A stretch of DNA of 64,000 bases from Candidatus Saccharimonadota bacterium (GTDB lineage: Bacteria; Patescibacteriota; Saccharimonadia; Saccharimonadales; Saccharimonadaceae): positions 1-64,000 of the forward strand of contig WRHJ01000004.1 in assembly GCA_009783305.1 (NCBI GenBank), read 5' to 3'. The notes beneath the pieces are model-generated. The model had not been told where the DNA came from. It did no database searches and saw only the letters and a list, made by a program, of their open reading frames with translations. This document shows positions 202-64,000 of the stretch, piece after piece. Position 1 is the stretch's first letter, and each line of letters starts with the position of its first letter. The translations under genes were made by a program, and so were the position numbers.

Positions 202-3200
202 ATGAGTGAACTGCGAGCGAGCGATTTTGTGCATCTGCACAACCATACGCATTATTCCCTATTGGATGGCCTGACAAAAGTTGATGAGTTGGTGGATTTT
301 GTGAAATCGCAGGGGATGGAGGCGGTGGGGATTACGGATCATGGCACGATGTCTGGACTGATTGATTTATATAGAACCGCGAAGGAAGCTGGCATCAAAC
401 CGGTCTTGGGCGTAGAGGCATATGTGGCGGCGCGGACGATGGATGACCGTGATCCGACTAAGGATAAAGAGCGATTCCACATAACCTTGCTGGCGATGAA
501 TAATGAGGGGTTTGAGAATATGTGCCGCTTGATGACGGAGGCAGAAACGCGGGGGAAGTATTATAAACCGCGGGTTGATCACGAAACGATGAAAAAATAT
601 AGCGGAGGGATCATCTGCCTTTCGGGGTGTGCTGGTTCGGAGATTTCGGAGAAGTTGAAGGCGGGAGACGGCAAGGGCGCACGTAAACTGGCAGACTGGT
701 ATTCTAAAACTTATCCGGGCAGGTTTTATCTAGAGATGCAAGATCATGGCCATCCGAAGTCGCCGACGCATTGGCCGGATCAGAAGAAGGTAAATGAAGG
801 CTTGCAGAAGATTGCGGCGGAGACTGGACTACCGCTGGTGGTGACTTGTGATGGACATTATTTGCATTTGGAAGATCAGGAAGCGCATGAAGTTTTACTG
901 TGTATTGGGACTGGGAGTAATGTTTCGGACGAGAATCGGATGAGTTTGAAGGACTTTGAGCTGCATGTTATCCCGCCACAAGATATTATTGGCCGCTGGG
1001 GTAAGGATTTTCCAGATGCGGTGAGGAATACAAAGAAAATTGCTGACGATTGTAATGTTGAGTTGGATTTGGATCGGATTTTGATTCCAGAATTTCCGGT
1101 ACCGGAGGGCGAGACGGAAAAAACTTATTTGGATAAATTGATTTTTCGCGGTTTGGCGGAACGTTACGGTGTGATGACAGCGAAGCAGGCGAAGACGGCG
1201 GAAATCAAAGAAATTCGTAAACTACTACCTAAAGAGTTGTTGGATAGGATTGATTACGAGATTGAGACTGTGAATAAGATGAAATACAATGGGTATTTCT
1301 TGATTGTGCAAGATTTCATTAATTGGGGGAAGGATCGCGGAATTGTGTTTGGACCAGGGCGAGGTTCGGCAGCAGGGTCGCTGTTGGCGTATGCGTTGCG
1401 TATCACGGATTTGGACCCGTTAAAATATGATCTGCTGTTTGAGCGGTTTTTGAATCCGGATCGGATTTCGATGCCAGATATTGATACGGATATTCAGGAT
1501 ACGCGCCGTGATGAAGTGATTGAATATTGCAGCCAGAAATATGGCGAAGGCAGGGTTTCGAATATTACTACTTTTGGTAAGATGATGGCGAAAAACGCGG
1601 TGCGGGATGTGGCGCGGGTGTTGGAGGTGCCGTACGCGGAAGCGGATCGATTGGCAAAATTGGTGCCGGATCCGGTGATGGGGCGCCATGTGAAATTGAA
1701 AGATGCGATTATTGATGATCAAGATTTGAAGAACGAATATGCGACGAATCAAACGAGCAAAGAAGTGATTGATTTTGCGATGCGGCTGGAGGGGACGATT
1801 CGAAATCACGGGCTACATGCTTGCGGTGTGGTGATTGCGCCAGATGATTTGGTGAAGTTTATGCCGCTGGAAGTTTCGGCAAAGGGGCCGATTGCAACGC
1901 AGTTCCCGATGGGCGAGGTAGAGGCTCTAGGGCTGTTGAAGATGGATTTTTTGGGGCTGTCAAACCTGTCTGTGATTCAGGCAGCGATTCGGATTATTAA
2001 GAAGGTTTATGGCGAGGAAATAAATGTTTCAGAGTTGCCGCTGGATGACAAAAAGACCTTTGAATTGTTTCAGAGGGGCGATACGACGGGCGTGTTCCAG
2101 TTTGAATCGGCGGGGATGAAGCGGTATCTGCGCGAGTTAAAGCCAACGCAGTTTGACGATTTAATTGCTATGAACGCTTTGTATCGACCGGGACCAATGC
2201 AATTTATTGAAGATTTTATTCGCCGGAAAAATGGATTGGCGCCGATTCGATATTTGCACCCTGGCTTGAAAAATTCTTTGAAAAGCACATATGGGATTTT
2301 GATTTACCAGGAACAGTTTATGCAGGCGAGCAAAGAGTGGTGCGGATTTACAGGCGGCCAAGCGGACACGCTGCGCAAGGCGGTGGGGAAAAAGCTGCCG
2401 GAAATGATGAAAAAAGTGAAGCCGGAATTTATTGATGGCGCGATGAAAGTTGGCGGGGCGACGAAGGAAATTGCTGAGACGTTTTGGAATCAATTGCTGG
2501 AGTTTGCAAATTACTGTTTTAACAAGTCGCACGCGGCATGTTATGCGATGATTGCGTATTGGACAGCGTATTTGAAGGCGCATTATCCAGATGCGTTTAT
2601 GGCAGCATTGATGACATCTGACATGAAGTGGACAGATCGGTTAGCGATTGAAATGTCAGAGTGTAAGCGCATGGGACTGACAGTTTTGGGACCGGATATC
2701 AATGAGTCATATCCAGATTTTGCGACGGTAGGCAAGACGGGGACGATTCGATTTGGGTTGGCGGCGGTGAAAAATGTGGGGAAAGCTTTGGTAGAGGAAG
2801 TGATTGAGGAGCGCGATAAGAACGGGAAGTTTATGAGCGTTTGCGATTTTGCACGGCGAGTGAACTCGACACGGTTTAATAAGAAGTCTTGGGAAGCGGG
2901 AATTAAAACTGGCGCATTTGATAAGTTTGGCGATCGTTCGGACTTGCTGTTTAATTTGGAAAAAATTCAGGCGTATGGTTCGAAGATTCAAAAGGAAGCG
3001 GCGAGCGGGCAGACAGATTTGTTTGGAGCTTTGGGGGAGGCGGCGGCAGTGCCAGAGGTGGAGATTGAACCGGCACCAACGAAGTTTTCGGAAAAAGATC
3101 AGTTGTTATGGGAACGAGAGTTGTTGGGATTGTATATTTCGGCACATCCATTGGACAAGTTTGGAGCTTATTTTACGGAACAAACAGTGCCGCTGGATGA

Positions 3201-3858: not shown

Positions 3859-4576
3859 AGCTGTGCTCTTTGCTGAAGTTTTGGTAAATATTGTCGTTGA
3901 CGCTGGGGTGGCCGATTTTTTCGGCGGCACGGACAATTTCATGAATATCGTCAGTAATCTTGTAAATTTTGCGATCCTTGGGCTTGATGGTTTTGAGACT
4001 TTTCTGCATCTTATTTTTGTAAAATTTATCGAGCGGAGACCAGAAACTTTTGCCAAATAGGAAGAGGGGCATGACGGGCATTTTTTCTTCTTGCATAAGA
4101 AGGAGAATTTCAGTTAATTCGTCCATGGTGCCAAAGCCGCCGGGGAAAAAGACAAAGACTTTGGAGCTGAAAGTGAGCATGACTTTGCGGGCGAAGAAGT
4201 AACGGAATTCGATGGCGTCGGTAAGATATGGGTTGGGATGTTGTTCGTGCGTAAGTTTGATGTTGAGGCCGATGGAACGGCCGCCGTGCTCGTAACAGCC
4301 GCGGCTGGCAGCTTCCATCATGCCAGGACCGCCGCCGGTGACGACGGGGTGGCCGTTTTTGGCTAGTTCTTTGCCAAGTTCGTAGGCTGCTTTGTACCAT
4401 TTATTGGTTTCGGGGATGCGGGCGGAGCCAAAGATGCCAACACCTTGGGCGTAAGTTTGAAGTTGGGCAAGCCCGCGTTCTAGATCTTGGGCGTAGCGGA
4501 GGGAACGCTCGACGTTTTCCGGGTTGAGTTGGCCGACTTCAATTTCTTTGAGCCATTGTCGGATTGCTTCGTTCAT
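3851..4576 (-). CDS. LOG family (TIGR00730-type) Rossmann-fold phosphoribohydrolase
   Basis: 241 residues. The family signature PGGFGTMDE is at residues 145-153 and the nucleotide-binding GGGPGMMEA at 81-89, both typical of LOG proteins, which hydrolyse nucleoside 5'-monophosphates to free base and ribose 5-phosphate. An N-terminal extension of about 45 residues precedes the core. It is the last gene of the gap-rpiB-rpe-pfkB-LOG operon, and its ATG overlaps the pfkB stop by 4 nt, which suggests translational coupling. The neighbours (sugar/nucleoside kinase, RpiB, Rpe) fit a role in feeding ribose 5-phosphate into central metabolism; this is inference. Lysine decarboxylase is an outdated label for this fold. 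Confidence 0.85.
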   Translation of the reverse strand: MNEAIRQWLKEIEVGQLNPENVERSLRYAQDLERGLAQLQTYAQGVGIFGSARIPETNKWYKAAYELGKELAKNGHPVVTGGGPGMMEAASRGCYEHGGRSIGLNIKLTHEQHPNPYLTDAIEFRYFFARKVMLTFSSKVFVFFPGGFGTMDELTEILLLMQEEKMPVMPLFLFGKSFWSPLDKFYKNKMQKSLKTIKPKDRKIYKITDDIHEIVRAAEKIGHPSVNDNIYQNFSKEHSSI

Positions 4577-5538
4577 TTTACCTCCTGAATAGGCATGGCA
4601 TGGAGCGGCGTGTCGATAGGGATGATGCCTTTTTTGGCGCCGAATTTTTGAATAACGGCAGTGGAATTGGCGGAAGCGAAAATGAGGGACTGGCGGAAAG
4701 ATTTACCGGCGGCATAGGCGGCGAGAAAGCCAGAACCAAAGGCGTCACCGGCGCCGGTGGAATCGACAACTTTGACATCTTCGTACATGCCAATGCGGTA
4801 AGTTTTGGCGCCGTCGGAAGCGATGGAGCCTTGACTGCCGTCGGTGACAATGGCGGTTGGAACGTAATTTTTGAGATGTGAGACAAGTTCGGTCAATAAT
4901 ACGCCTGGGACAATCATGCCGGCTTCGGTTTTGTTGACTAACAGGACATCAGTGTCTTCGAGCAGGCCGATCAGTTTGCGGCTATTTTCGAGCTCCAATG
5001 TGCCGGGATTAAACATGATGCGAGTGCCAAGTTTTTTGGCGCGAGTAAATAATTTATCGAGCATGTCCATATCGCCGCGCAGAGTGGTGACATACAGCCA
5101 ATCTGGCTGTATAAGGTCAAGATCTTTGTGGTCGAGCAGATCGAAGGTGGCGGAGGCACCGCGGCAGGTGAGGATGGTGCGTTCACCACTGGGCGCAAGC
5201 AAAATGACTGAATATCCGGTGTGAACGCCTTTGGCGTAGGTGACATAGCTAGTATCAATGCCCTCTTTGTCGAGAGCGTCGAGGACGGCTTTGCCGGCAG
5301 GGTCGCGGGCAATGCAGCCCATAAAGATGGTTTCGTGGTTGCTGCGCGCGAAAGTAGCGGCAGCATTAGTGGCACCGCCTCCAGTACTAAATAAAATTTT
5401 ATCGATATCGACTTTGACACCGAGCTCGAGACGATCAAAATAGCCGCGTCCTTTGATATTGATGTCGGTGGAAAAATCGTCGCGGTCAATCAGGTAGACG
5501 TCTTGGAGGGCGGAGCCGATGCTTACGATTCTGGCCAT
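4573..5538 (-). CDS. PfkB family carbohydrate/nucleoside kinase
   Basis: 321 residues of the ribokinase superfamily. Near the N terminus it has a GGGATNAAA substrate-side motif, and around residue 260 the TGAGDAFGSGF signature, whose Asp is the catalytic base in the family. Substrate cannot be read from sequence. The context in one operon with LOG, RpiB and Rpe favours ribose or a nucleoside over fructose 6-phosphate (inference). It is separated from rpe by 1 nt and overlaps LOG by 4 nt. Confidence 0.85.
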   Translation of the reverse strand: MARIVSIGSALQDVYLIDRDDFSTDINIKGRGYFDRLELGVKVDIDKILFSTGGGATNAAATFARSNHETIFMGCIARDPAGKAVLDALDKEGIDTSYVTYAKGVHTGYSVILLAPSGERTILTCRGASATFDLLDHKDLDLIQPDWLYVTTLRGDMDMLDKLFTRAKKLGTRIMFNPGTLELENSRKLIGLLEDTDVLLVNKTEAGMIVPGVLLTELVSHLKNYVPTAIVTDGSQGSIASDGAKTYRIGMYEDVKVVDSTGAGDAFGSGFLAAYAAGKSFRQSLIFASANSTAVIQKFGAKKGIIPIDTPLHAMPIQEVK

Positions 5539-5539
5539 G

Positions 5540-6190
5540 CTAGATCACTCCTAATTTTTCAGCTTCGGCAACCAAGTCGGTATACATTTTGGCGGGATCT
5601 TGAGCGCTGATGATGGCACTGCCAACGTTGATAACGTTGACTCCGGCTTGCGCAATAGTGCGAACATTTTTGATATTGGCGCCGCCGTCCCAGCCAAGTT
5701 CAATGGCTGGTTTGATTTTTTTGATAATGCGGACTTTTTCGAGTTGCAATAAATCTGCCGTACCACCGGTCTGACCGAGGTTGCCAGAGAAAATCATGGC
5801 ATGATCGGCAGCTTCTATGATATTGGCGATATCACCGGGATAGACATCCTTCATGATAGCAACGCCAGCTTTGATGCCATTTTTTTGCAAGGCGGCGAAA
5901 ATTGGCAAGAGATCTTCTTCGGCTTCTGGATGCAGGACAACTAAATTGGGCATGAGTTTGATAAGAGTGGGAACGTGGGAGGATGGTTGGGAAACAATCA
6001 TGTGCAAGTCGATGGTCCAACCTTTGGGCCACCAGACGGCTGTGTCCGGGACAGTTACGGAAGGCGCTAAAGAGCCGTCGGAAATATCTACCTGCGCTCG
6101 TTTGGTAAAGGGATGGTATGTTTCAATAATCAACTTATACTTAGCGGGATCATCGGTCAAAATAGTGGGAGAAATTACTAACAGCGCCAT
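5540..6190 (-). CDS. rpe: Ribulose-phosphate 3-epimerase family protein
   Basis: 216 residues, normal length for a TIM-barrel epimerase interconverting ribulose 5-phosphate and xylulose 5-phosphate. The phosphate-binding DGGAN segment and the IDLHMIV strand with a metal-ligand His are present. In the first metal motif, family members read H-x-D-x-x-DGxFxPN; here it is Gln33-Val-Asp35 followed by DGSLAPS, so one canonical His ligand is replaced by Gln. Activity is therefore likely but not certain. Separated by 1 nt from the genes on both sides. Confidence 0.78.
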   Translation of the reverse strand: MALLVISPTILTDDPAKYKLIIETYHPFTKRAQVDISDGSLAPSVTVPDTAVWWPKGWTIDLHMIVSQPSSHVPTLIKLMPNLVVLHPEAEEDLLPIFAALQKNGIKAGVAIMKDVYPGDIANIIEAADHAMIFSGNLGQTGGTADLLQLEKVRIIKKIKPAIELGWDGGANIKNVRTIAQAGVNVINVGSAIISAQDPAKMYTDLVAEAEKLGVI

Positions 6191-6191
6191 A

Positions 6192-6632
6192 CTATAAGCT
6201 GACCTCGTCTAGTTTTTTATTGCGGCGGATGTAGCGTTCGCGACCTAAAAATGCGGTCCTGAGGAAAGTTTCAACCATTTCGCCACAGTGGTGGCAATCG
6301 CCGTCAGCAGCAATGCAGATGACATTGGCGTCGTTATCTTCGCGAGTGACTTTGGCCTCGGCGGCATTGTGACAAAATGCGGCACGGATACCCTTGAAGC
6401 GGTTGGCTTGCATGCACATGCCTTGTGCTGAACCGCAGAGTAAAATTCCGAAGCTGCCGGGCGTAGCAAGAACTTCTCTGCATACCGTGACGGCGTAATC
6501 GTTGTAGTCGTCTTCGGGTATTAGTTCGTAAGCTCCTAGGTCGGTGAATTCAATCTGGTGTGACCCAAACCACTCAATGGCACGCTTTTTTAATTCGAAC
6601 CCTCTGTGGTCAGCTCCGAGATAGACTTTCAT
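6192..6632 (-). CDS. rpiB: Ribose 5-phosphate isomerase B family
   Basis: 146 residues, the usual RpiB size. It opens with GADHRGFELK and carries the catalytic-Cys loop GILLCGSAQGM, which varies slightly from the common CGTGIG form, followed by ANR and NDANVICIA. It interconverts ribose 5-phosphate and ribulose 5-phosphate in the non-oxidative pentose phosphate pathway. The start overlaps the gap stop by 4 nt and the stop is 1 nt from rpe, so it sits inside one transcription unit. Confidence 0.88.
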   Translation of the reverse strand: MKVYLGADHRGFELKKRAIEWFGSHQIEFTDLGAYELIPEDDYNDYAVTVCREVLATPGSFGILLCGSAQGMCMQANRFKGIRAAFCHNAAEAKVTREDNDANVICIAADGDCHHCGEMVETFLRTAFLGRERYIRRNKKLDEVSL

Positions 6633-7855
6633 TGTTGCTCCGGTTGGTAGTGGGCGTAATGGTCTTCGTTATGTTCATAACTTTCGTGATGTTCGTGATC
6701 GTCATGGCGTTCTTCTTCGTGTTCTTCGGTTTCTTCTTTTCCGCCTGATTCTTCTGGCTCGTGATGCTCTTCTGGTTCGGGCTGATCGCGCCATTCAGGT
6801 TTTTCATCTTGCTCTTCCGGTTTTTGTTCTGGTTCGGAGTCAGAATCGGATTTGACCATTTTTCCGAAATCGGCGGTAAGTTCGACGAGGCGGTTGCTGT
6901 AACCCCACTCGTTGTCATACCAAGCAACAACTTTGATGAGATTGCCGCCAATGACGTCGGTCAGATTGAGATCGACAATGCAGCTGTGCGAGTTGCCACG
7001 GAAATCAACGGAAACCAATTCTTCTTCAGTGATGTCGAGGATACCTTCGTAGTATGATTCTTTGGCGGCGTTTTGGAAGATTTCGTTGATCTCTTCTTTG
7101 GTGGTATCACGTTTGATAACGGCTGTGATATCGGAAAGTGAAACGACTGGGGTGGGGACGCGGACTGATAGGCCAGCGAATTTGTCTTTGAGCGAAGGAA
7201 TAGTGAGGGCGGTGGCTTTACTGGCACCGGTGGTGGTAGGAACGATGTTCTCGGCGGCGGCTCTGGCTTCACGCAGATCTTTGGCCGGGGCGTCTTGAAG
7301 ACGCTGGGACGCAGTATAGCTGTGAACAGTAGTCATCATGGCTTTTTCAATGCCGAAATTATCTTCGAGCAGTTTCATAATGGGCGCAATACAGTTGGTG
7401 GTGCAGGAGGCATTGGAAATAATCTCATCTTCGGCAGTCAGACTGTCTTCATTAACGCCAAGCACAATGGTCTTAGCGCCTTCGCCTTTAGCGGGAGCGG
7501 AGATGATGACTTTTTTGGCACCGGCATCAATGTGAGCTCTGGCCTTGTCTACTTCCGTAAATAAACCAGTAGATTCGATGACGATGTCAACGTCGAGTTC
7601 TTTCCAGGGTAAGTTGGCAGGATCTTTTTCGGCGAGAACTTTGATGTGTTTGCCGCCAACAATAATGGTTTGCTCATCGTGAGAAACAGTTTCGTCGTAG
7701 GTACCGTAGCTGGAATCATGTTTAAGCAGGTATGCTAGAGTTGCTGTGTCCGTTAAATCGTTGATTGCAACGATTTCGATGTCTGGTCGATCGAAGGCGA
7801 TCTTGAAGGCGGTGCGGCCGATGCGTCCGAAGCCATTGATTGCTACTTTTACCAT
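6629..7855 (-). CDS. gap: Type I glyceraldehyde-3-phosphate dehydrogenase with acidic/His-rich tail
   Basis: 408 residues. Residues 1-334 are a complete GAPDH, with NAD-binding NGFGRIGR and the catalytic Cys151 in SNASCTTNC, ending in the conserved WYDNEWGYSNR region. About 74 further residues follow, almost entirely Glu, Asp, His, Pro and Gln, ending in HYQPEQQ. Such a tail is not part of the family and is predicted to be disordered and perhaps metal-binding (inference). It is the first gene of the minus-strand operon, with a strong Shine-Dalgarno site (AAGGAGGAAC before ATG) and a TGCTACAAT -10 box further upstream. Confidence 0.95.
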   Translation of the reverse strand: MVKVAINGFGRIGRTAFKIAFDRPDIEIVAINDLTDTATLAYLLKHDSSYGTYDETVSHDEQTIIVGGKHIKVLAEKDPANLPWKELDVDIVIESTGLFTEVDKARAHIDAGAKKVIISAPAKGEGAKTIVLGVNEDSLTAEDEIISNASCTTNCIAPIMKLLEDNFGIEKAMMTTVHSYTASQRLQDAPAKDLREARAAAENIVPTTTGASKATALTIPSLKDKFAGLSVRVPTPVVSLSDITAVIKRDTTKEEINEIFQNAAKESYYEGILDITEEELVSVDFRGNSHSCIVDLNLTDVIGGNLIKVVAWYDNEWGYSNRLVELTADFGKMVKSDSDSEPEQKPEEQDEKPEWRDQPEPEEHHEPEESGGKEETEEHEEERHDDHEHHESYEHNEDHYAHYQPEQQ

Positions 7856-9567: not shown

Positions 9568-12500
9568 TTAGAGTCGTATTCTGCGGGACTGCCGACGCTG
9601 CTTGAAGATGACGAAGGAAATAATAGTAGCGGATGATATAGCTAGGCCAATGGACAGGTAACCGCCATTTAATATAAGGCCGAATATGCCAGTGCCTGGG
9701 AGACCGATGCTGGTGCCAGCAAGTATAACGATGCCTAATGGGACAACATTGCCGTTTCCGAAATCAGCCAAAAATGTATAGGTGCCAGGATTAAGGGTAC
9801 CAAGGTAGGTCTCATGAAGCGTGATGACAGTGCTGCCTTCTGAAACGTCATAATGATCGGTATGCACATCTGCTCCATCAAGAGTAAGCTTGATGAACTC
9901 ATTGAAATCTGCATTGATGATGGCGATACGATGCCCAATGCCGTTAAAATCGGCGAAGTGTTGAATTACTCGATAATTGGGTAGAGCAACTGCGATATTG
10001 CAGCTTTGGCTGGCATTGTTACGATTAAGATCACCTGGGTGCGAAGCGGTGATAGTAACTGTACCTACACCTATGAGGCTAAGGGTGTTGCTGGATACGG
10101 TCGCTATATTGGTATTCCAGCTGGTAAAGACAATGCCCGGAAGTCCGGTTGAATTGGAGGCGGAAAGAGTGATCGTGTCACCAACGTAACCGGAGACTGG
10201 GCAACTGAAAGAGATGGTTTGATCAGCTTTTAGGATGGAGAAGCTGATCTCTAGGTCGGCAACGTCGTAATCGCCGCTATCATCTGCCGAGACAACTAAT
10301 TTGTAGTTGCCGGCGTTGGTGGGAGCTTCTCCAAGAGTGATGTCCGCACTGGTTTTCCAGGTGTAAGTTGGCGAAAGAGTGTCAATTGTAGTGCCCAAAA
10401 TGGTTTCGGTGAAGATTGGGGTGCCGGAGATGGTTATGGGATTACCGTTGTATGCTCTGCTGGTAATCGAAATACCGCTAATCTCAACTGGCGTGCGTTC
10501 GGTGACATTAATGCTAATAACGGCCTCAGCGATGTTATAGTTGGTGCTGACAAAACTAATTGTTATGAGCGATTTGGCACTACCGGAAGCGGTGAGAGCA
10601 ATAGGCAGAGACAAGTAGAGATCATGGATACTTGGCGGACTAGTATAGATGTCCCCGTCGATGGATTCGATGTTATAAGCGCTGACATCGGAAGCGTTAA
10701 CATTGAAAGGCAGGAGGGTATCTAGATCGAAACTGTATACATTTGCGATTCCGGCCTTAACATTAAATTCTTGGTTGACGCCATCAGCGGAGGCTTGTCC
10801 TATCACCTGCCCCCCAACAGATAATGCGCCACTGCTAAGGATGTAGTTATTGGTTTTGCTGTTAGCAACTAAGGCGACAGTGCCAGTTACAGTTTTACCT
10901 GTGCCGGCATCGGCATTATTAAACTGAGCACTTGAGACTGTATAGTCAGTGGTAAGAGTAAGCGATTGACCACCTTCTAGACCAGTGAAGGTGACGGCAG
11001 TGACGGTGGCAGTGGTAGTTGTATCGTAAGTTTTAGGAGCAATCGTACCACTTGAGAGGCTGATAGACTTCTTGTCTATGTTATAAGTGCCAAGATTAAG
11101 TTTGACGGCAGAATAGTTAATGCCTTCAGCTATATCGGCATAGACTGTGTAGCTACCGGCATTGGTGGGAGCAGTAGTAGATTCAGCATAAGTTGTGCCG
11201 CCAGTACCAGCATAGCGAACCGTGATAGTGCCGAGTCCGATTACACCAGGTTTAGCAGCTGGCGTAGTGACGGGACGAGGCGAAGCATTGTAGATAATAC
11301 CAGTTGGGATGGAGTAGTCAATGTTGGAGGTGGTAGGGGTGGTTTTAGTTGGAGTAGGAGTAGATGTTTCTATCTTAGTAACAGCTAAACCTATGCTTTT
11401 CGTGACATTTCCGCCCTTATTGTCAGTAACAGTGGCCCTAACGGAATACGCTCCAGCTGTGGTGGGGGTCCCGCTAATGACGCCGGCGCTGGATATGGTC
11501 AATCCGGTGGGCAATCCAGTAGCGCTCCAAGTGTATGGGCCTGTACCGCCAGTTACATTTAGGGTTTGACTATACGCATCGCCGACTATACCTGATTGGA
11601 GTGAAGAAGTGGCAATTGACGGTGTGGTTTCGCTTGTTGATACAATGTAAACTCGATATGGTTTGCTGGCTATTTTGCCTGTGCTATCTATCACGGTGAC
11701 GTGGACAATTTCGCTGACGCCAGCTGCTCCAGAAGAAGCTGGAGTGCCCGATATCACACCGGTCGAGCTGTTAATGGAGAGGTCTTTGGTGAGTGTCGAA
11801 CCAACTTTAATGCTCCAGGTATAGGGGGCTGTCCCGCCAGTAGCAGCCATTGTAGCGCTGTAACTTGTCCCTTTGACCCCGCTTGGCAAAGATGGGGTTG
11901 TGATATTTAGATCGCTAGTGGTCGATGGCACTATGACTTTTATGTGCCGCACGTTCCAGTCCGAAGTATAGACTCCCATCATCACGCCAACCCAAAACTC
12001 GCCAGACGTGCTTGGCGTAATGGATAGTATGCCTGTATCTTTATCTATGGCTCTAACTATCTCGCTTGAAGTGACCGTTTTAGAGTCTGGGTAACTATGT
12101 AAATCGGTCGTAATTGAATATGGCGGGGTTGCCCCTGTAATATTTAACTGATATGTCGTAGTTTGTCCCAGTGGTGCTATTATCTCTGGAACATAGGCAA
12201 TATTGGGGCGAGAACTGTCAAATGGCGGATTTTCATGACCTTTGTCAATAGCCAGAAGCTGCAGAGAGCGATAAGCGTTCAGGACCCCGTAGCCTGACTG
12301 CACATCCCATCCTGGCCAATAAAGATCAACTGCGCCTTCTTCGAGATAATCTTGCACCTGTTTGTTGGTTAGTGTTGGATCATAAGACCATAGTAGCCCA
12401 GCTACTGCCGCTACTTGCGGGGTTGAGAACGATGTGCCACCAGCACTACCATAACCACCAGACCGTGTAGTCGTGTACCAGCCACCGGTTCCCATAATAT

Positions 12501-13569
12501 TAATCCCCTGTCCGAAACTGTGGCTAACAGTTCTGGAATATTGTGCAGACCCTACGCCGATTACGTTCGCATAGCGACCAGGATAACAAATGCCAGCTGC
12601 GCTTCCGTTGCATCCGCCGCTTCCTTGACCACCTTCGTTTCCTGCCGCCGCGACGAGTATAGCGCCCTTGCTATAGGCGTAATCGACAGCGTTCCTTTCG
12701 GTAACACTGTCCGAGCTGCCACCGAGGCTCATACTTATGATTTTTGCACCATTGTCAACAGCATAGGTAATGCCTCTTGCTACGGCTGCGGTCGATATTG
12801 AATTGTTGGCGTCGGCGCATTTGATTGGCATTATACCGACACCCCACGCTACACCAACAGTTCCCCGACCGTTGTTGCCTACTGCACCTACGGTGCCCAT
12901 AACTTGCGTGCCATGACCATGAGTGTCGGTTACGTCTGTGGTACCAGTGACTGCATTGTAAGGTTTGACTATATTGCTCTGATTGATATCGAGATGGTTG
13001 TAATAAAACCCAGTATCGATGATAGCTACTACAATATTTGAGTCGCCTATAGTGTAATCCCATGCTCTCGGCAACCCTAAATATTCTGCTGAGAATCTAT
13101 TCGACGACCAGTTTGGATCATTTGGTATGACTTCTAGTAACCTTCTCTCATAATTGGGCTCAACCAGTTCAACATCAGGGTCATTACTGTAGATTTCTAT
13201 CATTTCTTCTATGGTTTTGTCTTTGGGTATCCTGAGCTCTTTGGTGCGTAATGGTTTAATGTCGGTTACTTCAGTCGATCGAGTTCGACTATTGATACTC
13301 TTTATTCTGTCTTCCGAAACACCTTCTCTATATTTTACAATTATGGTATCTGAGGAATAGCCCCGATCAAAACTAGCCGCTTGTACGGTTGGTTGGTTGT
13401 TGAACCCGTTGAAGGCAAATAGGCCGAGAAGGATGGTTAGAGTGCTAAGAGTTAGTAGCGATAGTCTTGTTCTCTTTTGGAATTTTTTGTTGTGATTAAA
13501 AAGCAATGATCTTAATTTAGAAAAAGTGGAATGATGGATATGCACCTTACATTTCCCATTCTCTCGCAA
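9568..13569 (-). CDS. Secreted LPXTG-anchored subtilisin-like serine protease with Ig-like repeats
   Basis: Up to 1333 residues. A signal peptide (hydrophobic run about 36-50, cleavage near VQA-A) is followed by an inhibitor/fervidolysin-like propeptide (about 70-145). The S8 catalytic domain (about 150-440) has Asp185 (IIDTG), His219 (HGHGT) and Ser380 (GGTSFSTP). Then come two putative Ig (He_PIG-like) modules with GTP...SG turns, YDG/MBG-like beta modules, and at the C terminus LPGTG (1290-1294), a hydrophobic helix and an Arg-rich tail, which is a sortase signal. The start is uncertain: the first in-frame codon is TTG, no good Shine-Dalgarno site is seen, and a GTG lies at residue 9. Probably displayed on the surface and able to cut host or environmental protein. 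Confidence 0.92.
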   Translation of the reverse strand: MRENGKCKVHIHHSTFSKLRSLLFNHNKKFQKRTRLSLLTLSTLTILLGLFAFNGFNNQPTVQAASFDRGYSSDTIIVKYREGVSEDRIKSINSRTRSTEVTDIKPLRTKELRIPKDKTIEEMIEIYSNDPDVELVEPNYERRLLEVIPNDPNWSSNRFSAEYLGLPRAWDYTIGDSNIVVAIIDTGFYYNHLDINQSNIVKPYNAVTGTTDVTDTHGHGTQVMGTVGAVGNNGRGTVGVAWGVGIMPIKCADANNSISTAAVARGITYAVDNGAKIISMSLGGSSDSVTERNAVDYAYSKGAILVAAAGNEGGQGSGGCNGSAAGICYPGRYANVIGVGSAQYSRTVSHSFGQGINIMGTGGWYTTTRSGGYGSAGGTSFSTPQVAAVAGLLWSYDPTLTNKQVQDYLEEGAVDLYWPGWDVQSGYGVLNAYRSLQLLAIDKGHENPPFDSSRPNIAYVPEIIAPLGQTTTYQLNITGATPPYSITTDLHSYPDSKTVTSSEIVRAIDKDTGILSITPSTSGEFWVGVMMGVYTSDWNVRHIKVIVPSTTSDLNITTPSLPSGVKGTSYSATMAATGGTAPYTWSIKVGSTLTKDLSINSSTGVISGTPASSGAAGVSEIVHVTVIDSTGKIASKPYRVYIVSTSETTPSIATSSLQSGIVGDAYSQTLNVTGGTGPYTWSATGLPTGLTISSAGVISGTPTTAGAYSVRATVTDNKGGNVTKSIGLAVTKIETSTPTPTKTTPTTSNIDYSIPTGIIYNASPRPVTTPAAKPGVIGLGTITVRYAGTGGTTYAESTTAPTNAGSYTVYADIAEGINYSAVKLNLGTYNIDKKSISLSSGTIAPKTYDTTTTATVTAVTFTGLEGGQSLTLTTDYTVSSAQFNNADAGTGKTVTGTVALVANSKTNNYILSSGALSVGGQVIGQASADGVNQEFNVKAGIANVYSFDLDTLLPFNVNASDVSAYNIESIDGDIYTSPPSIHDLYLSLPIALTASGSAKSLITISFVSTNYNIAEAVISINVTERTPVEISGISITSRAYNGNPITISGTPIFTETILGTTIDTLSPTYTWKTSADITLGEAPTNAGNYKLVVSADDSGDYDVADLEISFSILKADQTISFSCPVSGYVGDTITLSASNSTGLPGIVFTSWNTNIATVSSNTLSLIGVGTVTITASHPGDLNRNNASQSCNIAVALPNYRVIQHFADFNGIGHRIAIINADFNEFIKLTLDGADVHTDHYDVSEGSTVITLHETYLGTLNPGTYTFLADFGNGNVVPLGIVILAGTSIGLPGTGIFGLILNGGYLSIGLAISSATIISFVIFKQRRQSRRIRL

Positions 13570-58762: not shown

Positions 58763-58839
58763 TGGTAGCACCAGGTGGGATCGAACCACCGACCTTAGGC
58801 TTATGAGTCCTACGCTCTAACCAGCTGAGCTATGGTGCC
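58763..58839 (-). tRNA. tRNA-Met(CAU)
   Basis: 77 nt with encoded CCA. Anticodon loop CTCATAA. The stem TAGGA/GCCTA has an A31-G39 mismatch. GGCACCA/TGGTGCT acceptor. An elongator Met or a lysidine-type Ile tRNA cannot be fully separated by eye; elongator Met favoured. Promoter TGTTATAAT 10 nt before the 5' end. Confidence 0.88.
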
Positions 58840-58861: not shown

Positions 58862-58891
58862 AAAAGGACTACCTTGAGAGGTAGTCCTTTT
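58862..58891. terminator. Bidirectional intrinsic terminator
   Basis: 12-bp stem AAAGGACTACC-type arms with 6-nt loop and T runs on both strands, after the adhesin gene. Confidence 0.9.
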
Positions 58892-58910: not shown

Positions 58911-61900
58911 TTAGTTTTGGAAGATACCGATGGCTTTGATAAACCAATGATCGAATCGACCTGCTTCTATCAATTTTTTGCCGAGTTCGATGGGCCCGAG
59001 TTTGATGTCTTCAAGATATTTTTTCTCGAGCTTGATGTCTTCGAGGTAGGTTTTGTCAAGTTCCTTGTCGTCAAGATAGGTTTTCTTGAGAACAATTGGC
59101 TTGAGGTAGGTCTTCTTGAGGAGCTTATCTTTGAGGTAGGTCTTCTTGAGGAAGATGGCTGGAAGATAGGTTTTATCAAGATATACCTTGTCGGCTTTAC
59201 CTTTGACGATGAGTTCGCCAAAGCTGACGGCCGCAATTTCTCTCTCTACGATGGTGACGTCTTCAGTGAATTCTTGTCCTGCGACGTTAAGAGTTACGGT
59301 GTAATCACCTGGATCAAACAGAGGCAATGAAGCGTTTTTGAGAGCAACGGTCGTTTCGAAGGTTTCTTCGTAAACAACTTCATTTAACGAGTTTGTGATG
59401 ATTAAGTTTACTGCGTCTTCGTAGGATTTGGTGAGGTGTTCGGTGTTGACTAGTTTGTTTTTGACGAAACGGTCACTGATTAGCTTGTTGCGGACGAAAG
59501 CATTTTTAACTAGCTTGTTGCGGACGAAAGCATCGGATGCAAGATCGGTGCGGATGTATTTATTGGAGACTAGGTCGGTGCGCACGTATTCATCGGAAAC
59601 TAGATCAGTGTACTTCAACTTGTCGGACAGTTTGACGCTTAATTCTTCGGCCAACTGATAACCCTTGAACTTGTAGTTGCTAGTGGTGTACCATTTGACG
59701 CCCTCCATGTGCATGTAGAGATAGATGGTGTCTGGTGTCTTTACGGTTGATTCTGTTTTTGGATAGTCGGTCACAGAAGCGGATTTGACGCCGTTGCCGT
59801 TGTATTCGACGACGACAGTGTAGCCGTCAAAGCTGTAGGTTTTCTTGGCGTTCTTTTCGTATTTCACAACTGTTACGGCAGATCCGACCTTGATAGTGAC
59901 GTTGTCGCCATTTTGGGTGGTAGTAGCAGTTGGAGCGGCAGTAGCTTTGGGTGAGTCGGTCGGAACATCAATGGTGACGGAATTTGCGGAATGTTTTGGC
60001 GCGTTGCCTGGGAAACCGAAATCTTTGTCTTTCTCGTTGATGTTGGCTACTGCGTAAGCACCAACACTGGCCGAGATGAGACGATCGTCGAAGGAAATGG
60101 TGAGTTTGCCGTCTTTGATCTTGACGTTGTACTGGTAATCAATTGGCGTATTGTATTCGTTGGGTGTCTTTTTGCCGTTGGCATTGAAGCTGGAATCGGC
60201 AATAGTGTACCAGACCCCGCCTTCTGTGCTGGCTGCGGCTACGTCTACGGCTACATAAGTGTGGCCGTTTTTGAAAGCGCCGCCATTAGTTGGGGTTGAT
60301 TTTGCGCTGTAGGGTTCTGTGTACTCCAAACGAGTAACCAAAGTACCGCTAACAGAAGAGACGTCTCCCTTTACAAATACGGGGACTGAGAATAGTTGGT
60401 AAGTCCTCTGCCAGAATGGCTGGTAGGTCCTTTGCCAGATTGGCTGGTAAGTTTTTTGCCAAACTGGTTGGAGCTCTTTTTGCCAGATTGGTTGGTAAGT
60501 CTTCTGCCAGATTGGCTGAAGTTTTTTCTGCCAGTACGGTTGGTAGGTTTTTTGATCGTATGCAGTCGTGATATCGACATCTACGGTCAATGAACCGAGA
60601 AATGCAGATTCGTCTGGAGTGTTGTTGAATAGAGCTTCGCCAGCGAAAATGGGGACAAGTTGGGGCTGGCTGTCACCAATGGTGCCGTTAAGTGAAGTAA
60701 GGTAAGCAAGACCTATGATGGTGTTGTGTCCAGTGTAGCCTTTGCTAGCTTCAAGCATTTCTAAGAATTCAGCATTGAGGGCGTCATACTGTTCGCCCTT
60801 GGCGCGAATTTCTGTTACTGTGAAATTTTCAGCATCGGCTGGAAGCAGGTACCAGACCGCCATTTGGGCGAGAATTCTAGCATCATTAGGTTTGCCGTTG
60901 AGACCGAACACTCGGGAGATATCTGCCGTTGGATGGGCATCAGCTATGTAGTTGAAGGCTGAGAGGATGTCTGCATAGGTATCTGGGTCTAACACGGCGG
61001 GTTTGTAGCCGCTTTCGCTGTATGCCCAAGAACCGACGTGAGCACAGAAAGATGCATATTCTTCAAAGTCAGAGCCCATTGAAGTGCGAACGGTAATGCC
61101 TTGGACTTCGTTGGCTTGGCTTCTGGCAGTGGCATTTTCGTGGCCGTCTTTGACGCCATCCCATACCATGCCGCCTGAAAACTCGGTGTATATAGGAATT
61201 CCGTTACCGCCCATGGCAACCCAGCTGGAATCAACATAATATTTGGCGTTAACGTCAAACTGATAGTTGCCAATTGGGTATTTATCGTTATTGCCTTTGG
61301 CGCCGATAAAGAAATACTGTGGTCCAGTTGCGTCGAAAATATCGGCAGCAAGACCACTAAGGGATTCGACTACGGCATACCAACCTGGTTCAAGATCTAA
61401 CCCAGTGAAGGTAATGGTGCCGTCAATGTCGATAATACCGTCGGTAATGAAATCGGCAGAGTCGTAAGCAGTGCCGGTAGGATTGGCTTTGTAAAGCGAG
61501 AAGTTCATGCCGGCAATAAGAGTTTCGGCGTCTACGCCAACATCTGTAGTCCACGTCCCAAACAGTTCGCCACCTACGGTCTTTTGAATTGTAATGTAGC
61601 CTGAGGGGATGCTTGGATCATTTTCCTTGCCCTTGTTGAAACCGCTGATATTGAAGTTGACATTTGATTTGTCGTTGGTAACTAAAAAGCTATCGCTTGC
61701 GTTGTTGTTGCCTTTATCTACGTAAGCAATTGACCAGTCGTATGGTGCTACGATAACCCAACCCGGGTTATTGCCGCCATTGTTGACTGAAGGGCCCATA
61801 TCCGGGGTCCAGTTGAATACTGCACCGTTGGTGAAAGTTAGTTGCATTTCGCTGACGTCGCTGAAGTCATCACCAGTGTAAACAAGGTGCCAAACGTTGG

Positions 61901-62117
61901 GATAAGTAGCGCTCTTGACTTCGTCATTGACGTAAAACACGTTGCGCCATCCCTCGTCTTTGAAGCTGCTGCCGCTACCCTTCAAATAGATGGTATTGCT
62001 TGCAGCGGCAACGTTTATTGCGGGCATTGCGGCCACGAACACCAAGGCTAGGGCACAAATGGCCGACGTTAGTCTGGTCAAGATTTTGCCCCGTTTAAAA
62101 GTTGATAATTTTTTCAT
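58911..62117 (-). CDS. Predicted thioester-domain adhesin with three short tandem-repeat arrays
   Basis: 1068 residues. Signal peptide 1-39. A beta domain (40-165) is followed by a SpaA/Cna-B-like module (about 172-275, ITIQKTVGG...GWYAVVE). A predicted thioester (TQxA-type) domain spans about 285-480, with Cys358 in SFCAH and Gln418 in AQMAVW. Then come seven 8-residue repeats of type Q(K/R)TYQPxW (522-575), two beta domains (590-715, 735-815), six 10-residue repeats (834-893, xSDxYVRTDL type), a beta domain (900-960) and six to seven 10-residue repeats (977-1046, KKTYLxxxxL type). No LPXTG or C-terminal anchor helix is seen. Shine-Dalgarno GGAGG 8 nt before ATG. Confidence 0.75.
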   Translation of the reverse strand: MKKLSTFKRGKILTRLTSAICALALVFVAAMPAINVAAASNTIYLKGSGSSFKDEGWRNVFYVNDEVKSATYPNVWHLVYTGDDFSDVSEMQLTFTNGAVFNWTPDMGPSVNNGGNNPGWVIVAPYDWSIAYVDKGNNNASDSFLVTNDKSNVNFNISGFNKGKENDPSIPSGYITIQKTVGGELFGTWTTDVGVDAETLIAGMNFSLYKANPTGTAYDSADFITDGIIDIDGTITFTGLDLEPGWYAVVESLSGLAADIFDATGPQYFFIGAKGNNDKYPIGNYQFDVNAKYYVDSSWVAMGGNGIPIYTEFSGGMVWDGVKDGHENATARSQANEVQGITVRTSMGSDFEEYASFCAHVGSWAYSESGYKPAVLDPDTYADILSAFNYIADAHPTADISRVFGLNGKPNDARILAQMAVWYLLPADAENFTVTEIRAKGEQYDALNAEFLEMLEASKGYTGHNTIIGLAYLTSLNGTIGDSQPQLVPIFAGEALFNNTPDESAFLGSLTVDVDITTAYDQKTYQPYWQKKLQPIWQKTYQPIWQKELQPVWQKTYQPIWQRTYQPFWQRTYQLFSVPVFVKGDVSSVSGTLVTRLEYTEPYSAKSTPTNGGAFKNGHTYVAVDVAAASTEGGVWYTIADSSFNANGKKTPNEYNTPIDYQYNVKIKDGKLTISFDDRLISASVGAYAVANINEKDKDFGFPGNAPKHSANSVTIDVPTDSPKATAAPTATTTQNGDNVTIKVGSAVTVVKYEKNAKKTYSFDGYTVVVEYNGNGVKSASVTDYPKTESTVKTPDTIYLYMHMEGVKWYTTSNYKFKGYQLAEELSVKLSDKLKYTDLVSDEYVRTDLVSNKYIRTDLASDAFVRNKLVKNAFVRNKLISDRFVKNKLVNTEHLTKSYEDAVNLIITNSLNEVVYEETFETTVALKNASLPLFDPGDYTVTLNVAGQEFTEDVTIVEREIAAVSFGELIVKGKADKVYLDKTYLPAIFLKKTYLKDKLLKKTYLKPIVLKKTYLDDKELDKTYLEDIKLEKKYLEDIKLGPIELGKKLIEAGRFDHWFIKAIGIFQN
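58980..59189 (-). repeat. 30-bp coding repeats (KKTYL decamers)
   Basis: Seven imperfect units encoding the 10-residue repeats at residues 977-1046. Confidence 0.88.
59433..59618 (-). repeat. 30-bp coding repeats (YVRTDL decamers)
   Basis: About six imperfect units encoding residues 834-895. Confidence 0.88.
60393..60554 (-). repeat. 24-bp coding repeats (QKTYQPxW octamers)
   Basis: Seven units encoding residues 522-575. Confidence 0.9.
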
Positions 62118-62243: not shown

Positions 62244-62329
62244 TGGCGGAAGGGACAAGATTCGAACTTGCGGTGCTTTCGCACGCTGGTTTTCAAGACC
62301 AGTGCCATCAACCACTCGGCCACCCTTCC
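62244..62329 (-). tRNA. tRNA-Ser(UGA)
   Basis: 86 nt with encoded CCA and a long variable arm (GTGC-GAAA-GCAC). Anticodon stem CTGGT/ACCAG around CTTGAAA. The -10 box TGGTATAAT ends 7 nt before the 5' end, so the transcript starts at or 1 nt before the mature tRNA. Confidence 0.95.
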
Positions 62330-62391: not shown

Positions 62392-63318
62392 ATGGCGATT
62401 TTGGGAATTGATGAAGTGGGGCGAGGGCCATGGGCAGGGCCGCTAGTGGTGGGGGCGTGTGTGCTGCATGGGGAAATTGAAGGTCTGACTGATAGCAAGA
62501 AGTTGAGTGCGAAGCGGCGGGCTGGATTAAATGAGGTGATTTTAGCGGAGGCGAGTTGGGGGTTGGGATGGGTGTCGGCGGCGGAATTGGATGAAATTGG
62601 ATTGGCAGCAGCATTGCGGAGGGCGGCGATTGAGGCAGTTTCGAAAGTGGATTGCAGATATGAGGAGATTATGATTGATGGGACAGTTAATTTTTTGGCA
62701 GAGACCGGGAAAGGCCGTTATGTAACTACGCTGGCGAAAGCAGATTTGTTGATACCCGCGGTGTCGGCAGCATCAATTATTGCGAAAGTAGCGCGGGATC
62801 AGTATATGACTGATGCGGCGGAGAAATATCCGGAGTATGGGTTTGAAAAACATGTGGGGTATGGGACGAAAATGCATAGACAGGCGTTATGCAAGCATGG
62901 AATTTGCCCGGAACATCGAAAATCATTTCGACCGATTGCTGAGTTGATTGGTGTTGATTTAAAACGTAATGTTGTAAAAAATACAACACTCACGGGCGGG
63001 CAGGCGGAGGAAAAAGTTGCGGAGTATTTGGAAGGGCTAGGGCACGAGGTAGTAGCACGAAATTGGAAAACGCGATGGTGCGAGATTGATATTGTATCGA
63101 TGCATGAGAGGAAAATGTATTTTACGGAAGTGAAATATCGGCGCGATTTTAAGCATGGGTCAGGATTGGAAGCCGTTGGCGTGGAAAAATTACGCAGGAT
63201 GAAGTTTGCGGCAGAAAGTTATATGAAATTTCGCGGCGGTGAGCTTGAACCACTATTGGCAGTGGCGAGTGTGAGCGGAATAGATTTTAGGGTTGAGGAT
63301 TTTCTAATCCTACAGTAG
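62392..63318 (+). CDS. rnhB: Ribonuclease HII fused to UPF0102 (YraN) nuclease-like domain
   Basis: 308 residues. Residues 1-195 are RNase HII, with GIDEVGRGPWAGPLV (Asp7, Glu8) at the start and the MIDG and ADLLIPAVSAASIIAKV segments; it removes ribonucleotides and R-loops from DNA. Residues about 203-308 are a complete UPF0102/YraN domain (GQAEEKVAEYLEGLGHEVVARNWK, CEIDIV, YFTEVKYR), a PD-(D/E)xK-like fold. The two genes are often neighbours in bacteria; here they form one reading frame with a short linker. Leaderless ATG at 62392; the longer frame upstream runs through tRNA-Ser and is not real. Confidence 0.9.
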   Translation: MAILGIDEVGRGPWAGPLVVGACVLHGEIEGLTDSKKLSAKRRAGLNEVILAEASWGLGWVSAAELDEIGLAAALRRAAIEAVSKVDCRYEEIMIDGTVNFLAETGKGRYVTTLAKADLLIPAVSAASIIAKVARDQYMTDAAEKYPEYGFEKHVGYGTKMHRQALCKHGICPEHRKSFRPIAELIGVDLKRNVVKNTTLTGGQAEEKVAEYLEGLGHEVVARNWKTRWCEIDIVSMHERKMYFTEVKYRRDFKHGSGLEAVGVEKLRRMKFAAESYMKFRGGELEPLLAVASVSGIDFRVEDFLILQ

Positions 63319-64000
63319 GTTCGTTGGGACAAGTTTGCAGGACTTTTTGCATGGCGGATTTTTCTGGCTGGGTGACCCAGAGTATATATTTGAATTTGAT
63401 GGAAATTTGACGGGCAACATATTGGCATTGGAAGGCGACGTTAGGCGGCAGCCATTCCGATGCGTCTTTGTCAGATTTTTGTTGATTGGCGGGACCATCG
63501 ACGGCAAGAAGGTTAAGCGGGTCTTGGCTGAGAGCTTTGCGTTCGGTTTTGTCTAAACGATAGGCGCCGGTGGACCAAGCGTTAGATAGCGCAACCACGT
63601 GATCGATTTGAACAGCGCTGGAGGTACCAGGACCGCGGATAAAATCGATGGTTTTGCCGGTGTATGGATCGTGTAAAATCCCGGATAAAACGAGGCAACC
63701 GTCGAGTTTAGTGTCGACGAGGTCGCGCTGGAGGATAATGTTGCGCATGTCGCAACCTTTGACGACGCTCCAATTGGAGTAAAAATTGGTACGGACATAT
63801 TTTTGTTCGGTGTAATGGGAGTTAACTTCGAGTTTCTCGAGGACAACGATAGCGGAAAATTCGGAAGGCTGCTCGATGGTGTCGGCTTCGGCGGGTTTGG
63901 GTTGGTAATTGGCAGGGTTGGCGATGAGCCAGACGACAAGGGCCAGCAGAGCGGTAATGACGATGGCGAGCCGGCGAAAGGCGGGCTGGCTAATTTTGGC
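63287..64000 (-). CDS. Secreted HNH family nuclease (DUF1524-like), 5' end outside window
   Basis: At least 237 residues; the frame is open to the last base of the window, so the N terminus is missing. The visible part begins with a membrane/signal segment (RRLAIVITALLALVVWLIA), then a linker and the nuclease domain: RTNFYSNW, CDMRNIILQRDL, IDHVVALSNAW with the catalytic His, RKALSQDPLNLLAVDG and NQQKSDKDASEWLPP. This pattern is that of secreted HNH (DUF1524-type) nucleases. An internal ATG at 63748 is not the start, because upstream residues are conserved family sequence. Its 3' end overlaps the rnhB fusion gene by 32 nt. Confidence 0.85.
   Translation of the reverse strand, partial: AKISQPAFRRLAIVITALLALVVWLIANPANYQPKPAEADTIEQPSEFSAIVVLEKLEVNSHYTEQKYVRTNFYSNWSVVKGCDMRNIILQRDLVDTKLDGCLVLSGILHDPYTGKTIDFIRGPGTSSAVQIDHVVALSNAWSTGAYRLDKTERKALSQDPLNLLAVDGPANQQKSDKDASEWLPPNVAFQCQYVARQISIKFKYILWVTQPEKSAMQKVLQTCPNEPTVGLENPQP

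Follow-up and report, generated by a model that had tools for sequence, protein, structure and literature searches.

Gene and predicted protein

The gene under study occupies positions 58911-62117 of the minus strand in the window, i.e. the entire 64,000-nucleotide stretch of DNA that was analyzed. The open reading frame given for it in the preliminary description was confirmed: it runs uninterrupted from ATG to TAA and encodes 1068 amino acids. By its anatomy, the gene is a single transcription unit, and a GGAGG ribosome-binding site is located ahead of the ATG. The features of the locus are listed below in the direction of reading. L042, L078, and L154 are related actinobacterial proteins, and G034 and G035 are two genomes of the same genus as the window.

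62244..62329, minus strand: tRNA-Ser(tga), upstream border of the inserted gene (ARAGORN; same neighbor in G034 and G035)
62001..62117, minus strand: predicted Sec-type signal peptide, residues 1-39 (MKKLSTFKRGK...AINVAAA), with a basic and a hydrophobic stretch followed by an AxA-type site
61632..62000, minus strand: N-terminal scaffold domain, residues 40-162 (identity 62% to L154, 40% to L042)
61263..61631, minus strand: SpaA/Cna-B-like (prealbumin-like) domain, residues 163-285, part 1 of the probably inserted module (PF17802)
60597..61262, minus strand: thioester-like domain, residues 286-507, part 2 of the probably inserted module (PF08341, sub-threshold)
61044..61046, minus strand: codon of Cys358, the predicted thioester Cys (FCAH) and the sole Cys outside the signal peptide
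60864..60866, minus strand: codon of Gln418, the predicted thioester Gln (AQMAVW), in the sole Q-x-A-x-W of the protein
60387..60554, minus strand: array 1, seven octamers of the type QKTYQPxW, residues 522-577 (TRF period 24, 60389-60554)
59952..60386, minus strand: middle scaffold domain, residues 578-722 (TLVTRL...PTNGG.FKNGHTYV...IADSSFNANGKKTP), compared with L042, L078, and L154 over residues 588-722
59727..59951, minus strand: second insertion, residues 723-797, a small beta-rich unit of 75 residues (missing in the relatives by alignment)
59445..59633, minus strand: array 2, decamers of the type LVSDxYVRTD, residues 829-891 (TRF period 30, 59449-59610)
59199..59426, minus strand: Ig-like scaffold domain, residues 898-973 (aligns with all relatives, 21-34% identity)
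58980..59186, minus strand: array 3, decamers of the type LxKTYLxDI, residues 978-1046 (TRF period 30, 59073-59171)
58862..58891, minus strand: intrinsic terminator directly downstream of the gene, a 13-bp stem and then a T run
58763..58839, minus strand: tRNA-Met(cat), downstream border of the inserted gene (ARAGORN)

The 16S gene (Rfam SSU) of the window's genome (0.79 Mb, 7 contigs) matches a TM7-specific primer site exactly; by this site, genome size, and gene content, the organism most likely belongs to Saccharimonadia. Several LPXTG-like proteins are encoded in the genome together with a sortase (PF04203, E 6e-24). The protein itself was found, as had been claimed, to be devoid of an LPXTG motif and of a C-terminal membrane helix; it also has no basic tail, and array 3 is followed by a short, non-anchoring C-terminus. 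In GC content and codon usage, the gene is typical of its genome (54th percentile). The sequence is best read as that of an adhesin, probably independent of sortase, that is secreted to the surface of an episymbiont-type bacterium with a small genome.

The count of seven octamers in array 1 held, although the proposed Q(K/R)TYQPxW fits only four of the seven exactly, with KL, EL, or an LFS ending in the other three. The two proposed decamer arrays were found; they lie at about residues 829-891 and 978-1046 and are tandem repeats at the DNA level. The SpaA-like domain and the 75-residue insert (residues 723-797) were absent from the preliminary description. PF17802 matched residues 160-285 with 20.8 bits (E 0.00044), just below its cut-off of 23.1. 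In the second insertion, the blocks at residues 731-780 were modeled with a pLDDT of about 90, the longest stretch of good confidence within an otherwise poor model.

Genomic site

In two same-genus genomes the site of the gene is empty: the tRNA-Ser and tRNA-Met genes are separated by 39 bp (G035) or 154 bp (G034), with no gene between them. The same pilin gene follows the tRNA pair in both of these genomes and in the window. Positions 62392-63318 of the window encode an RNase HII fused to a YraN/UPF0102-like domain. This fusion gene adjoins pilB in the relatives and the inserted adhesin gene in the window; the changed neighbor indicates that the region was rearranged. Also beside the adhesin gene, a membrane- or signal-anchored nuclease of the GmrSD_C/HNH type (PF07510, E 2e-14) is encoded on the minus strand at 63287-64000 and beyond. 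Elsewhere in the window (9571-13569, minus strand), a 1333-residue subtilase with a sortase-type LPGTG tail was noted (Peptidase_S8, Ig-like, and YDG domains); it may be an exoprotease on the surface of the same cell.

A scaffold shared with Propionibacteriaceae

Searches with the whole protein (100 relatives, the genome collection, phages, and the PDB) returned no homologue. A DNA pattern for two octamers (TYQPxxxxTYQP) was also run against the genome collection, and L042 and L078 were found among the matches listed. Most of the matches, of which there were at least 119, were rejected as DNA repeats in Bacteroidetes and Chloroflexi. The third relative was added by a search of the family of the L042 genome. 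The members are:

L042: WRFP01000066.1, Propionibacteriaceae MAG Lab288P4bin79, scaffold member
L078: WQUE01000163.1, Actinomycetes MAG Cu122P5bin14, scaffold member, its genome being in the family set of L042
L154: genome G610, scaffold member of 514 residues

Alignments and pairwise BLASTP showed all three to be colinear with the window protein in the order N-terminal domain, octamers, middle domain, decamers, Ig-like domain, decamers. By alignment, array 1 is also present in L042 and L078, and L154 has about two degenerate units of it; array 2 occurs in the relatives with differing copy numbers, and array 3 is present in them as well. The Propionibacteriaceae members thus resemble the window protein in domain order, in their three arrays, and in having no anchor. 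They differ from it in length (514-641 residues vs. 1068) and in having neither the SpaA-like/thioester module nor the second, beta-rich insert; in L154, the repeats are also fewer. The locus of L078 holds two scaffold gene copies in tandem (1-663 and 1136-3058), one of which is a C-terminal part. Around L154 lie apparent recG, coaD, pnp, RNase J, and dapB genes; the neighbors of L042 are deoA, deoC, deoD, a phosphomutase, and trpS. Such neighbors, on contigs with a GC content of 59-61%, indicate that these two genes reside on actinobacterial chromosomes.

In the preliminary description, the protein had been put forward as a candidate for an undescribed system. As stated, this was not right: the arrays belong to a family shared with Propionibacteriaceae, and the thioester part is a probable insertion into it. 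The proposal of sortase-free anchoring fits, in that the Propionibacteriaceae relatives are likewise without anchors.

Within the window's own class, the scaffold was found in 0 of 44 same-genus genomes, in 0 of 294 other sampled genomes, and in 0 of a set of 100 relatives that included the genus. On the Propionibacteriaceae side, searches of the order (344 genomes) and of the class (361 genomes) detected no further members. Scans of IMG/VR for the scaffold and for thioester domains gave nothing, and the scaffold family had no match in Pfam, NCBIfam, or the PDB as far as these were searched. Plasmid matches were confined to the octamers (ca. 30-40% identity) and were rejected as repeat composition; scaffold-profile matches in G188, G246, and G463 were dismissed as look-alikes made of simple repeats. 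Because the sampled genome sets were partial, the family may be wider than the members found.

Lateral transfer and probable insertion

Over residues 588-722 of the middle domain, the window protein is 68% identical to L042, 65% to L078, and 58% to L154, values like those between the actinobacterial members (54-67%). In the N-terminal domain, the window protein and L154 share 62% identity vs. 35-54% for the actinobacterial pairs. Between the same genomes, the housekeeping orthologues RecG, RsmD, RNase J, PNP, and TrpS are only 30-42% identical. The disparity between 58-68% for the scaffold and 30-42% for housekeeping proteins points to lateral transfer. As a rule, surface proteins diverge more rapidly than others, yet here the scaffold is the more alike, which makes vertical descent very unlikely. 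Lateral transfer of the scaffold between Saccharimonadia and Propionibacteriaceae lineages is therefore strongly supported by sequence comparison. The distribution of the family suggests that the direction was from an actinobacterium to the episymbiont. A misbinned contig was considered and rejected on the basis of GC content, codon usage, and synteny; since the gene's GC content and codon usage are typical of its genome, the transfer is not a recent one, nor is the gene a contaminant.

All three actinobacterial members align without residues ca. 163-505 of the window protein. In them, the N-terminal domain leads straight into the linker that precedes the octamers. The string FNISGFNKG is identical in L154 and the window protein, and it is after this string that the latter has ca. 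343 extra residues before the pre-octamer linker. Because the module is missing in three of three relatives, the SpaA-like and thioester-like module was probably inserted between the N-terminal domain and the octamer array in the window's lineage.

Evidence for a thioester domain

Cys358 in SFCAH and Gln418 in AQMAVW, the residues on which a thioester had been predicted, are present and lie 60 residues apart. Among 20,000 shuffled versions of the protein, none had the strict Cys...Gln pattern and 15 had a loose one. FCAH conforms to the Cys motif defined for thioester domains (TEDs), [YFL]C-hydrophobic-hydrophilic (PMC8092201). AQMAVW conforms to the (T/A)Q-x-A-(I/V)-W motif; the spacing of the family covers 60 and above, and that of the window protein is near those of two other thioester-type proteins, L157 and the one encoded in genome G054. 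A SpaA-like domain, such as the one preceding this region, is the usual companion of thioester domains.

Among 24,736 Pfam models, PF08341 was the only one to report the region, and its alignment ran from F357/C358 through the Gln motif. Its score of 15.0-15.5 bits (E 0.023 in the Pfam scan, 0.018 in the genome search) did not reach the curated cut-off of 22. Every trial alignment placed Q418 opposite the conserved Gln/Lys of thioester domains. C358 was in register with the known TED Cys in 141 of 150 subset alignments, in which the segments had been pre-cut around the motifs, favoring a match; in one multiple alignment it was out of register, and the motif was not recovered when hhalign was run against an alignment of thioester domains. 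AlphaFold2 models had pLDDT values of 32.5 and 38.5, with the thioester region predicted without an alignment. The prediction of a thioester domain is consequently upheld in part: the sole Pfam match and the register of Cys and Gln in most trials speak for it, and the score below the PF08341 cut-off speaks against it. We consider it fairly probable that the thioester-type fold is genuine, and we are less confident that the bond is actually formed in the predicted domain.

Other thioester proteins and known systems

Clear thioester proteins were found in the window genome's own family in G054 (1002 residues) and G050 (882 residues). That of G054 consists of a TED, seven SpaA stretches, and a PNTG tail. 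In an even sample of the class, 1 of 393 genomes had a clear thioester protein; among Propionibacteriaceae the figure was 24 of 148. A profile including these reference domains retrieved solved thioester adhesins in the PDB. Weak PF08341 matches in G037, G092, G082, G055, G047, and G013 were rejected, being RNA polymerase, cytoplasmic, or other non-TED proteins.

In three proteins, Lys replaces the conserved Gln while the Cys is kept (ATKVAIW, KVAVW): L015 (G050; 4179-6824, minus strand), from a Saccharimonadia-type genome, and L180 (G606) and L177 (G625), from Propionibacteriaceae. These domains may cross-link by some other chemistry, or another Gln may serve in them. The thioester-type proteins of G050 and of the Propionibacteriaceae genome G606, both with Lys, share 36% identity over 692 residues (E 2e-107); by this similarity, the pair is a second predicted thioester-type adhesin common to the same two lineages. 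The genome G610, which bears the scaffold member L154, also encodes a separate TED-like protein, L157 (2431-3759, plus strand; 442 residues; YCIE...VQLAAW), with a proline-rich stalk and a C-terminal membrane helix.

The window protein differs from the sortase-anchored proteins of G054 and G050, in which the TED is N-terminal and is followed by SpaA-type domains and a sorting-signal/membrane tail. Those proteins have no octamer or decamer arrays, and that of G050 has Lys at the Gln position. With TIE proteins (Class I/II, PF08341/PF20610: SfbI, BaTIE, TIEpLS20), the window protein shares predicted Sec export, the Cys motif, Q-x-A-x-W, and a SpaA/Cna-B-like neighbor; like TIEpLS20, it has no sorting signal. 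It differs in that its domain is internal, follows the SpaA-like domain, scores under the Pfam cut-off, and is set in a scaffold of three arrays. Such a scaffold with three arrays of short repeats is known to us from no described TIE protein. In B. subtilis, efficient contact of mating pairs requires TIEpLS20, a thioester adhesin that has no sorting signal and in which the Cys is essential (PMC8092201). Covalent binding of host proteins is reported for characterized thioester adhesins, SfbI among them (PMC4450167).

Proposed mechanism and alternatives

We propose that the protein is an adhesin with a laterally shared, Propionibacteriaceae-type scaffold and an inserted SpaA-like/thioester module, held non-covalently on a cell surface and fixing the host contact by its thioester; we judge the case for this proposal to be evenly balanced. 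The protein would be exported by Sec, and its repeat arrays would hold it non-covalently on a cell surface. As the actinobacterial relatives have no sorting signal, their surface retention, if any, would likewise come from the arrays or other domains. The Cys358-Gln418 thioester would then fix the contact by reacting with an amine on the surface of a partner, the most plausible partner being a host actinobacterium. It is from the features above that we infer the formation of the bond, the use of the repeats as an anchor, and the target. Arachnia propionica belongs to the Propionibacteriaceae. It is a host of oral Saccharibacteria, cultured members of which were isolated on it (PMC7651992). A more specific version, in which the episymbiont took a surface protein of its host's family and added the thioester module, so that the protein would dock in the host wall by means of the host's own wall-binding repeats and a covalent bond would then lock the contact, appears rather unlikely to us.

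A less likely alternative is that the scaffold is laterally shared and the insert contains no working thioester, the Cys and Gln being degenerate or coincidental; the protein would then be a non-covalent, repeat-rich wall-associated or matrix protein. The sub-threshold PF08341 score, the hhalign failure, the single out-of-register alignment, and the poor structure models, none of them usable, count in its favor, and the Lys-for-Gln relatives in G050, G606, and G625 demonstrate that a thioester-type fold can lose the canonical pair. It is harder to reconcile with the shuffling result for the strict pattern, with PF08341 as the region's sole Pfam match, with a Cys-Gln spacing close to those of G054 and L157, and with a sole mature Cys alongside a SpaA-like domain.

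Improbable, in our estimation, is transfer into Propionibacteriaceae from Saccharimonadia or from a third donor, with an ancestral thioester module that was lost in the actinobacteria. The gene's codon usage, typical of the window's genome, would suit this course of events, only three actinobacterial members are known, and the family has no rooting outgroup; against this, Propionibacteriaceae hold three divergent members (35-54% identity in the N-terminal domain) vs. a single member in Saccharimonadia, a single insertion of the module is more parsimonious than its loss from every one of the three, and the tRNA-Ser/tRNA-Met site is empty in the window's relatives. We think it very unlikely that the thioester domain is directed at an animal or plant surface or at gut matrix instead of a host bacterium. 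The covalent binding of host proteins by SfbI-type adhesins (PMC4450167) is a precedent for such a target, but a thioester adhesin acting between bacteria is also known (PMC8092201). The isolate names of the L042 and L078 MAGs, which we take to denote termite-gut samples, also count toward an animal or gut target; on the other side, cultured members of the window's lineage live on other bacteria.

Significance

In a literature search, no paper was located in which thioester domains and Saccharibacteria are both named. The type of thioester domain is already known; we know of no precedent for the combination, for its setting in an episymbiont, or for an origin across phyla. How CPR bacteria and Saccharibacteria recognize and hold their hosts is, as far as we are aware, little understood beyond type IV pili. 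A surface protein shared between phyla, with an insert of a covalent-binding type, is a concrete candidate for a host-attachment factor. Propionibacteriaceae are an actinobacterial family that includes cultured hosts of Saccharibacteria. The finding suggests a route by which the hosts of uncultured episymbionts might be guessed, i.e. by looking to actinobacteria that carry the same scaffold.
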